Part shown: positions 18,194 through 26,193 of the stretch, piece by piece | Numbering within the stretch: position 1 is the stretch's first letter | How the letters are laid out: each line of letters begins with the position of its first letter | Source: Chloroflexota bacterium | Lineage (GTDB): Bacteria > Chloroflexota > Anaerolineae > Anaerolineales > UBA11858 | NCBI GenBank assembly: GCA_030666985.1 | Contig: DAOUWT010000003.1 | Coordinates: 1 to 36,648 of the forward strand | Length of the DNA stretch: 36,648 nucleotides | Direction: 5' to 3' | Position numbers and translations under genes: made by a program | The notes under the pieces: model-generated | What the model was told of the DNA's origin: nothing | Database searches by the model: none | The model's input: the letters and a program-made list of their open reading frames with translations, nothing else

Positions 18194-18481
18194 CTATTTT
18201 CTAACCGTAGCAACTTGCCTGTTTAAATCTTTATCAATTCGTTCTCGCAAATATACTTTCATTAACGATTGATAGGGAACATCCATTTTATTTGCTATCA
18301 ATTTCAACTCATTTAACATTGTCTCTGACATACGCAGTGATATTGCTTTATTGGCCGGTTTTAGATTTGGCAATATCACCTGTTCTGCCTGACTCCAATC
18401 CATATATTCTGTGGAATCATGCGTTGCCCAGAATTCTCGTTCTTCATCTTCATTTTCGAATTTAGGAATTGGCTTTGGCAT
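18194..18481 (-). CDS. BrnA/CopG-like antitoxin
   Basis: MPKPIPKFENEDEEREFWATHDSTEYMDW + ISLRMSETMLNELKLIANKMDVPYQSLMKVYLRERI; overlaps the upstream BrnT-like gene by 20 nt. Confidence 0.85.
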   Translation of the reverse strand: MPKPIPKFENEDEEREFWATHDSTEYMDWSQAEQVILPNLKPANKAISLRMSETMLNELKLIANKMDVPYQSLMKVYLRERIDKDLNRQVATVRK

Positions 18482-18758
18482 ATTTTCTTTCTTCCTTTTG
18501 GTTCATGTCACGGGCGGAGATTACCCGAATCTTGTTTTTTCTTATCGTAAAAGCTATAAACAACCATCTGTTTGCATTTGTATGACCCAATACATAGTAA
18601 CGTTTTTCATACTGAGAGTGTTTTGTGTCATCAGCCAACAAAAGCGGGATATTAAAGAATACTTCTTCACATTCTAAATCGGATACCTGATGGTTTATCC
18701 AATTTTTATCAATATTCCCATCGTCCCATTCAAAGCCATCAATGTTATAAATATCCAT
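18462..18758 (-). CDS. BrnT-family ribonuclease toxin
   Basis: FEWDDGNIDKNWINHQVSDLECEEVFFN..RYYVLGHTNANRWLFIAFTIRKNKIRVISARDMNQKEERKY is the BrnT pattern. Confidence 0.88.
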   Translation of the reverse strand: MDIYNIDGFEWDDGNIDKNWINHQVSDLECEEVFFNIPLLLADDTKHSQYEKRYYVLGHTNANRWLFIAFTIRKNKIRVISARDMNQKEERKYAKANS

Positions 18759-23446: not shown

Positions 23447-24214
23447 TCAGTATTTCGTTTCCAGGCTAGCGGTTGGCAAAACAATTTCCCCTTCACGGGA
23501 ATCCCCCACTTGGGTGATTTGCTCAGGTTTGATGGCGGCTGTCCAGGCTGTGTAGGCGGCTATTAGGGCGTCTAGCTCCTCGGGGGAATAGAGGCGATCT
23601 AGGGGCAGGATGCCTTGTAAAATCCGATAGCGGGTGATTTCTTCGAAGATGCGCATGGCGTCCGGGACTTCAACGGATTTTGAATGCAGGAGTACTTGGC
23701 GTTGTAAGCGGCCCATCAGGGTTTTCTTTTTGAAGGGTAGTATGCCCAACAAGACGGTATAAGCCGCGTGGGGATAAACTTCAAGAACTTGCAGGGAGGC
23801 TTCTTCTTGGGGATACTCCCGATAGCCGAATTTTTCCAGACGCCGGTAGATTTTGAAGCCAGTTTGCATCCAGCCCGGACAGGCCTCAGTTTTGGCACAG
23901 GTGCGGGGGATGCGGATATTGTGCTGAAAAAGCCGGTACTCCGCCACTCGAAAGCTTGTCCAACGCCCTGGGGTCGGGATAGGAGATAGCTCCTGGCGTA
24001 TCTCTTCTTGCTGCATTAGCTTCTGGTTTGGACGCCTGGGAGAGTTGATGCCCACAAAGGCCGTTTCCTGCCCGCCCGCAAAAGCCAGGACGTCGTTTAT
24101 GTCGCCTTGGGAGAGAGCCAGCAGCCGCAGGTCTTGGTCCAAGACCGCGTAGGTGATGGGACGTTCTCCTGCTGTGGGGTCTATGCCAATAAAGACGGTG
24201 TTATTGAATAACAT
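23447..24214 (-). CDS. DUF429-family protein
   Basis: VFIGIDPTAGERPITYAVLDQDLRLL..AFVGINSPRRPN..LEVYPHAAY..YSPEELDALIAAYTAW. Confidence 0.75.
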   Translation of the reverse strand: MLFNNTVFIGIDPTAGERPITYAVLDQDLRLLALSQGDINDVLAFAGGQETAFVGINSPRRPNQKLMQQEEIRQELSPIPTPGRWTSFRVAEYRLFQHNIRIPRTCAKTEACPGWMQTGFKIYRRLEKFGYREYPQEEASLQVLEVYPHAAYTVLLGILPFKKKTLMGRLQRQVLLHSKSVEVPDAMRIFEEITRYRILQGILPLDRLYSPEELDALIAAYTAWTAAIKPEQITQVGDSREGEIVLPTASLETKY

Positions 24215-24273: not shown

Positions 24274-24490
24274 CCTCAAAAAGCTTGTACTATGAGTGTA
24301 GCGCAAAACCTTGATTATGGCAATGTTTTTTTTGTAATTTGCAGGGCAATTGCATTTGGCATCAAATATATAAGGGGATTCCAAGAAAATAATTGTCCCA
24401 AAGTTCGTGGTGTGTGAAGACGTGATGCGTGAAAACGTGAAACGTGAAATCATGCATCACGTCTTTACGTTTCACGTTTTACGTTTCATT

Positions 24491-24900
24491 AATTATTCCA
24501 CATGTTGTTAAGTATTTATATTTAGTAGTCTTAGTAGGGGCTGTGGATAAGTGGATAAGGCGCTTATCCGAAGTTGAAATCCCTGACTAGTTTGATGTTC
24601 AGGAGATATATAGGGGATACCATTTGGCAAGGGGGTGTATGTGGGGGTGGGTTGGGGAGAGGGCATGAAAAGTTATCTACAGTTTGCATGTGGAAAAGGC
24701 AGGAATAACTTTCTTAGGAAATAGCGCTTTCTGGTCTTAACTCTATATATGGGGGAAAGAGAGTCTATGACCGCTATATGTGCTAAAAAGGGAATTTGGT
24801 CTGTGGATAAAAAGAGGAGAGTTATCCCCAAAAGAGGGTGGTTATCCACAATTTTTAAGGGGTTATCCACAGTTTTCGTGCTTTGTGGGAAAATTCACAC
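24491..24900. promoter_or_regulatory. DnaA-box cluster; candidate oriC or DnaA-titration site
   Basis: Perfect boxes at 24542-24550 (-), 24802-24810 (-), 24842-24850 (+), 24863-24871 (+); one-mismatch boxes at 24550-24558, 24673-24681, 24689-24697, 24822-24830; AT-rich ttgttaagtatttatatttag at about 24504; no coding ORF. Confidence 0.75.
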
Positions 24901-24933
24901 CCCTACCTATGGGGGTTGAGAATGGGGCTGACC

Positions 24934-26193
24934 CTATACTTGAGGGGCTATTATTGTCCCATCGGGAATGACGGTGTTCTTAGGAATCACCACAATACCA
25001 TCGCGGATAGACCAGTTTCCGAATTGTTCTTCGGTGCCGCGCGGGAAAGGTTTTATAACTACATTGGCGCCAATACGGACATTTTTATCTATGAGCGCAC
25101 CCTCAACATGGCTGTTGGCTCCAATGCCAATTGGCACGTCAGACGCTTGCGATCTATGCTTTTCATAATAATCTGCGCCCATCAAGACGGTGTCTTTCAG
25201 GAAAGCATTATCTTGGATTTGGCTGCGCACCCCAACTACTGAATGGATAATTTCTGCCTGCCCTATGTAGCTGCCGTCTGACAAGAAAACCTGTTCCAGG
25301 CGGGCGCCTTTTACGATTGTCCCCGGCAAAAAGCGGGGATGTGTGTAAATAGGGGCCAGGGGGTTGTAGATTTTAAATGGAGGGTTTTGGAGAGTCAGGT
25401 TGAGGTTTGCTTCATAAAAAGAGCGAATTGTTCCAATATCTTCCCAATAGTCTTCAAAGTCGAATCCAATCACATTTTTGGTGTGGATAGCGTTGGGGAT
25501 AACTTCTCCGCCAAAATCATCTGCGGTGGAGTTTTCTAGGAGTTCAATCAACACTTCTGTTTTGAAAAAATAAATTCCCATAGAACCCAGATAAGGGAGT
25601 TTAGGGTCATCTCGACTGACAACTTTTTTCAAAACATCCGGGTCGCTTGGTTTTTCTACAAAATCGGTGAGAAAGCCACTTGAATCCCTTTTAAGAATGC
25701 CGAGGCTAGGGGCTTGGGATGCAGAAACTGGCTGTACCGCAATGCAGATGTCGGCGTCCTTCTCCCAGAGATGCTTTGCCATAGCCTTGTAATCCATGCG
25801 GTAGAGATGGTCTCCCGCCAAAACTAAGACATATTTTGCCCCCGTGGTGCGAATCTCCAAAAGTTGTTGGCGAACCGCGTCAGCCGTGCCTTGGTACCAG
25901 GTCTGATTTGTGAAAGTTTGTTCCGCCGCCCAAATCTGGACCCAGCCCCGGTGAAAGGGATCAAAGTTGTAGGTCTGGGTGATATGCCGGTGGAGAGAAA
26001 CGGAATTGAATTGAGTAAGTACCGCAATTCGGTTTATGTCAGAATTGATGCAATTGCTGAGAGGTATGTCTATTAGGCGGTATTTCCCAGCGATAGGGAC
26101 GGCAGGTTTGGCGCGTACTTTTGTTAAGGGGTAGAGGCGTGTCCCCCGTCCTCCGCCCATGATGACGCCTAAAATGTCTTTAGTTGAAGGCAT
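24934..26193 (-). CDS. glgC: Glucose-1-phosphate adenylyltransferase
   Basis: GVIMGGGRGTRLYPLTKVRAKPAVPIAGKYRLIDIPLSNCINS, VLAGDHLYRMDY, GFDFEDYWEDIGTIRSFYEANL. Confidence 0.97.
   Translation of the reverse strand: MPSTKDILGVIMGGGRGTRLYPLTKVRAKPAVPIAGKYRLIDIPLSNCINSDINRIAVLTQFNSVSLHRHITQTYNFDPFHRGWVQIWAAEQTFTNQTWYQGTADAVRQQLLEIRTTGAKYVLVLAGDHLYRMDYKAMAKHLWEKDADICIAVQPVSASQAPSLGILKRDSSGFLTDFVEKPSDPDVLKKVVSRDDPKLPYLGSMGIYFFKTEVLIELLENSTADDFGGEVIPNAIHTKNVIGFDFEDYWEDIGTIRSFYEANLNLTLQNPPFKIYNPLAPIYTHPRFLPGTIVKGARLEQVFLSDGSYIGQAEIIHSVVGVRSQIQDNAFLKDTVLMGADYYEKHRSQASDVPIGIGANSHVEGALIDKNVRIGANVVIKPFPRGTEEQFGNWSIRDGIVVIPKNTVIPDGTIIAPQV

Follow-up and report, generated by a model that had tools for sequence, protein, structure and literature searches.

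A predicted DnaA-dependent replication origin apart from dnaA, next to glgC in a member of the Anaerolineales

The intergenic region at 24490–24871, perhaps reaching to 24915, is very probably the ordinary DnaA-dependent oriC of the chromosome of an uncultured member of the Anaerolineales (Chloroflexota), uncoupled from dnaA, and not a DnaA titration site. All coordinates refer to the window, i.e. the whole stretch of DNA analysed here, which is the complete contig C26 (36,648 bp) of a draft genome of 2.91 Mb in 429 contigs (88% complete). A replication origin uncoupled from dnaA had already been proposed in a preliminary description of this DNA. That proposal is now backed by an unwinding module with DnaA-trios and DNA unwinding element (DUE), its single copy, its conservation in congeners, a GC skew switch at the site, and the location of dnaA and dnaN on other contigs. 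The features of the region are collected in Table 1.

Table 1. Sequence features of the predicted origin and its two neighbouring genes (window coordinates)
Feature	Position	Strand	Remarks
DUF429 gene	23447..24214	-	Pfam assignment; other neighbour of the box cluster
AT-rich DNA unwinding element (DUE)	24490..24522	+	79% A+T over 24500-24533; AT-rich in congeners too
DnaA-trios	24523..24537	+	3'-GAT GAT TCT GAT GAT-5'; read directly; conserved in congeners
GC-rich 4-bp spacer between DnaA box and trios	24538..24541	+	GGGC on +; matches the spacer of PMC8287927
Tandem DnaA boxes within the unwinding module	24542..24558	-	TTATCCACA 24542-24550, TTATCCACT 24550-24558; position kept in congeners, with box variants
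Middle one-mismatch DnaA boxes	24673..24697	.	TTATCTACA (+, 24673-24681), TTTTCCACA (-, 24689-24697)
ATATGGGGG element	24747..24755	+	ATATGGGG recurs among origins of this genus
Exact DnaA box	24802..24810	-	inverted relative to the array; shared only with the closest congener
Phased array of three DnaA boxes with the same orientation	24822..24871	+	TTATCCCCA-N11-TTATCCACA-N12-TTATCCACA at 24822, 24842, 24863
Inverted repeat CCCCTACCTATGGGGG	24900..24915	.	similar repeat upstream of dnaA; lead only
glgC (glucose-1-phosphate adenylyltransferase; glycogen synthesis)	24934..26193	-	Pfam NTP_transferase + LbH_GLGC; 3' end toward origin; neighbour in congeners

The decisive element of the region is a module that was absent from the preliminary description, in which tandem DnaA boxes are followed by a GC-rich spacer of 4 bp, by trinucleotide repeats (DnaA-trios) and by an AT-rich stretch, the minus strand from 24558 downwards reading TTATCCAC-TTATCCACA-GCCC-CTACTAAGACTACTA-AATATAAATACTTAACAACATG. 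On the plus strand, the repeats correspond to the DnaA-trio consensus of the basal unwinding system (BUS) found in bacterial origins (PMC8287927; PMC6669920). Here, the trios start no more than 16 bp from a DnaA box, with the 4-bp spacer between them, and four of the five are 3'-GAT-5'. Measured against the strict trio rule of at least three consecutive NAN trios, (.A.){3,} (PMC8287927), the run is split into two plus two 3'-GAT-5' trios by TCT, the third trio, which has no central A; some relatives obey the strict rule. The third trio lacks the central A in 58/81 matches to our degenerate pattern (see below) and has it in 23/81. The missing central A reads as an order-wide feature, and strict trio finders could miss it. 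The AT-rich stretch beyond the trios, pointed out earlier, contrasts in its A+T content (24500–24533; Table 1) with a value of 50% for the window.

Eight DnaA boxes, four exact copies of TTATCCACA and four with one mismatch, span 24542–24871 and form the densest exact cluster of the draft genome; every box named in the preliminary description, which had counted four exact boxes in both orientations and at least four one-mismatch boxes, is present. Its assertion that this density exceeds chance is borne out by shuffling, genome-wide counting and calculation alike: boxes with at most one mismatch number 16 in the window versus 7.5 ± 2.8 after shuffling, with no shuffle attaining 16; exact TTATCCACA occurs 28 times genome-wide versus 9 times for the reversed control; and with an expectation of 0.003 exact boxes in 330 bp, a four-box cluster of this kind would arise anywhere by chance with a probability of about 1.5e-7. 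Features by which an oriC with a BUS is recognized coincide here, namely a box cluster above chance, a DUE adjoining the trios and one copy per chromosome. The ggataag-gcg-cttatcc palindrome reported at 24553–24569 does exist, but it is not a core element, because it is not kept in the congeners.

To follow the module across genomes, a degenerate box-spacer-trio pattern was run with up to two mismatches against 200 genomes, with the reversed pattern as control. The pattern was present in 81/200 genomes including the one under study, exactly once in each, while 119/200 were without a match; the control matched a single genome. Eight of nine congeners possess the module, and the ninth (G001, 84% complete) has neither the module nor a glgC match. 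In seven congeners the module directly adjoins glgC, normally just beyond its 3' end. A first look at up to 1.5 kb from glgC in other families revealed no box cluster; the BUS search then placed the origin 2–4 kb from glgC in G008 (2.5 kb), G014 (2.2 kb), G020 (3.5 kb) and G070 (3.6 kb; another family). When the congeners are aligned, the intergenic region as a whole proves diverged, and the module block and the three-box array are its two best-conserved parts. The array, some 300 bp from the module and also found in G008, keeps its 20/21-bp spacing in the congeners, where some of its boxes carry one mismatch, and a variant box occupies the aligned place of TTATCTACA in most congeners. Many relatives carry the module beside quite different genes.

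As to the immediate setting, the cluster does not lie upstream of glgC, as originally described, but at the 3' end of this gene and 5' of DUF429. The interval was rightly described as free of a plausible CDS, as the list of open reading frames of at least 90 amino acids between DUF429 and glgC shows only the edge of one antisense to glgC. An Rfam search of the window returned tRNA only, and the contig carries a tRNA-Leu gene together with ordinary metabolic genes. DUF429 is not a conserved neighbour, with no match at E<=1e-30 at the origin flanks of 20 relatives. Left of the origin, an AT-rich segment (38–39% G+C) harbours two adjacent small open reading frames (18194–18758) that by eye resemble a BrnT/BrnA-type toxin-antitoxin pair.

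Since the genome itself is a 429-contig draft, GC skew was read in the window and in relatives. The cumulative skew of the window reaches its lowest value near 21 kb, some 3.5 kb to the left of the boxes, and rises afterwards. GC skew was higher to the right of the site than to the left in 22/22 genomes, that of the window included, and in 21/22 when equal flanks of up to 10 kb were compared (mean +0.084), versus a mean of +0.005 with 51% positive values at 59 control points; the 22 genomes are related and hence not independent trials, although several families with different neighbouring genes are among them. Third-codon-position skew within same-strand genes shifts in the same direction in the window and most other genomes, so that gene orientation alone does not explain the shift. 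In the complete relative G113, the skew samples between 0.4 and 2.6 Mb are positive, apart from one small exception, and those in the rest of the genome negative; the module, at 0.556 Mb, lies near the switch, and dnaA, at 1.487 Mb, within one arm. Whole-genome skew fits loosely in G030 and is too noisy in G174. The site is thus at a skew minimum locally in the window and in 22/22 genomes, and genome-wide only in G113.

The earlier statement that the window contains neither dnaA nor dnaN is correct; dnaA resides on contig C309 and dnaN on contig C269, and neither adjoins the module. An origin next to dnaA was considered and rejected, as dnaA, which is followed by an AI-2E-family transporter gene, has just one exact box upstream and no BUS match; nor does the assembled genome contain the BUS pattern anywhere other than at the present site. 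In six complete or near-complete relatives (G112, G067, G172, G113, G030 and G174), module and dnaA are about 0.19–2.1 Mb apart, the distances for G172 and G030 assuming circularity. Five Anaerolineales of the families f2, f4 and f9 (G028, G065, G035, G049 and G073) have the module within about 1 kb of dnaA, at its 3' end, and in many Bacillota and Poribacteria the pattern occurs just past dnaA, the classical place of the origin. Because those five relatives, from three other families, keep the module at the dnaA 3' end, origin and dnaA appear to have been separated in the genome studied here. Most simply, linkage to dnaA would be the ancestral state, which the window's family and several others would have lost.

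Titration sites such as E. coli datA and DARS are DnaA-box clusters for which trios, a DUE and a location at a skew switch are not expected. A datA- or DARS-like titration or reactivation locus, which binds DnaA without starting replication, would account for dense DnaA boxes far from dnaA, and a second, trio-free cluster on contig C202 points to the possible presence of such sites in the draft genome. The locus nevertheless shares just the box cluster with datA and DARS: the trios and the DUE adjoining the boxes, the single copy in each genome, the position at the skew switch and the lack of a better origin candidate in the assembled genome all speak against titration, the alternative left open in the preliminary description, which we therefore consider very unlikely. 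More improbable still is a role of the boxes in transcriptional control of glgC or DUF429. DnaA also regulates genes, and the cluster does lie on the 5' side of DUF429; its position at the 3' end of glgC, the fact that DUF429 is not a conserved neighbour and the occurrence of the module beside quite different genes in many relatives largely exclude this explanation. That the site serves not the main chromosome but a secondary one, or a large plasmid, is equally improbable: a contig of a draft genome could come from any replicon, but the module is on the main contig of the single-contig relatives G030, G113, G172 and G174 (4.0–4.5 Mb), the genome studied here has a single BUS match, and the contig carries the tRNA-Leu gene and ordinary metabolic genes.

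With the region taken as oriC, we infer DnaA binding, unwinding and helicase loading by analogy with the BUS origins of B. subtilis and other bacteria. Once bound to the tandem boxes (24542–24558), DnaA would be led over the GC-rich 4-bp spacer to the plus-strand trios, from 24537 down to 24523. By stretching the trio strand it would open the AT-rich DUE at about 24490–24522, so that the helicase could be loaded and replication could proceed in both directions. The boxes at 24673–24871, above all the phased 20/21-bp array, are probably accessory DnaA sites that help to assemble or nucleate the complex, or to time it.

Further elements at the origin and elsewhere in the genome may be relevant to its control. 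ATATGGGG occurs in 6/8 aligned origins; the longer ATATGGGGG, with 27 sites genome-wide versus 19 for the control, is weak on its own. A CCCC-N8-GGGG inverted repeat is present at the window's origin and upstream of the dnaA of this genome, as well as upstream of dnaA in five congeners. On contig C309 (locus L005), the region upstream of dnaA contains at 455–470 the inverted repeat CCCCAATATATGGGGG, which resembles that at oriC, and at about 540–575 a TTTAAG...CCTTAAAG inverted repeat kept in congeners, both being possible regulator sites. The idea of a shared motif stays a lead, since a common CCCCCAATTCTGGGGG-type repeat dominates the genome-wide matches to the pattern CCCYHANNNNTDRGGG. The trio-free cluster on contig C202 (L006, 14905–14989) comprises three exact TTATCCACA boxes at the 3' end of an RmlD-like gene; congener G004 retains both of its spacings, 32 and 44 bp, and G007 retains the pair 32 bp apart. 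This cluster is a candidate DnaA titration site. On contig C24 (L007, 5851–5880), two exact boxes lie 21 bp apart, the spacing of the last two boxes of the array. Neither the C202 nor the C24 cluster has a BUS match, and both were rejected as competing origins. The CCCC-N8-GGGG repeat or ATATGGGG half-sites, combined with the conserved trio-free cluster, would point to a regulator plus a DnaA titration site. A lineage-specific control circuit of this kind in Anaerolineales, with an unknown regulator acting at oriC and upstream of dnaA and with titration at the C202 cluster, is a tentative idea that we regard as rather unlikely.

An oriC, a BUS and dnaA-free origins are all of known kinds. The locus is like the B. 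subtilis oriC BUS (DnaA-boxes 6/7 plus DnaA-trios; PMC8287927, PMC6669920) in its tandem boxes, a GC-rich spacer of about 4 bp, 3'-GAT-5' trios on one strand and an AT-rich DUE beyond them, and unlike it in being next to glgC instead of dnaA and in lacking the central A in the third of five trios. The five dnaA-linked Anaerolineales origins have the same box-spacer-trio pattern close to the dnaA 3' end, whereas dnaA is on another contig in the present case. In E. coli, oriC is likewise separated from dnaA, but its BUS score is weak (PMC8287927), while the module is clear here. Cyanobacteria encode dnaA and dnaN apart and have an oriC separated from dnaA, which parallels our findings; the S. 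elongatus oriC, however, is near dnaN (PMC7198777), which in our case is on another contig. Among the literature titles and abstracts listed, none described an oriC from Anaerolinea or Chloroflexi. By default, origin finders take dnaA as their indicator gene (PMC10225481); in this organism and its relatives within the Anaerolineales they could put the origin in the wrong place, with consequences for read-depth growth-rate estimates and for work on strand bias. With dnaA-linked and dnaA-free forms of one unwinding module, the Anaerolineales offer a natural series on the parting of an origin from its initiator gene.
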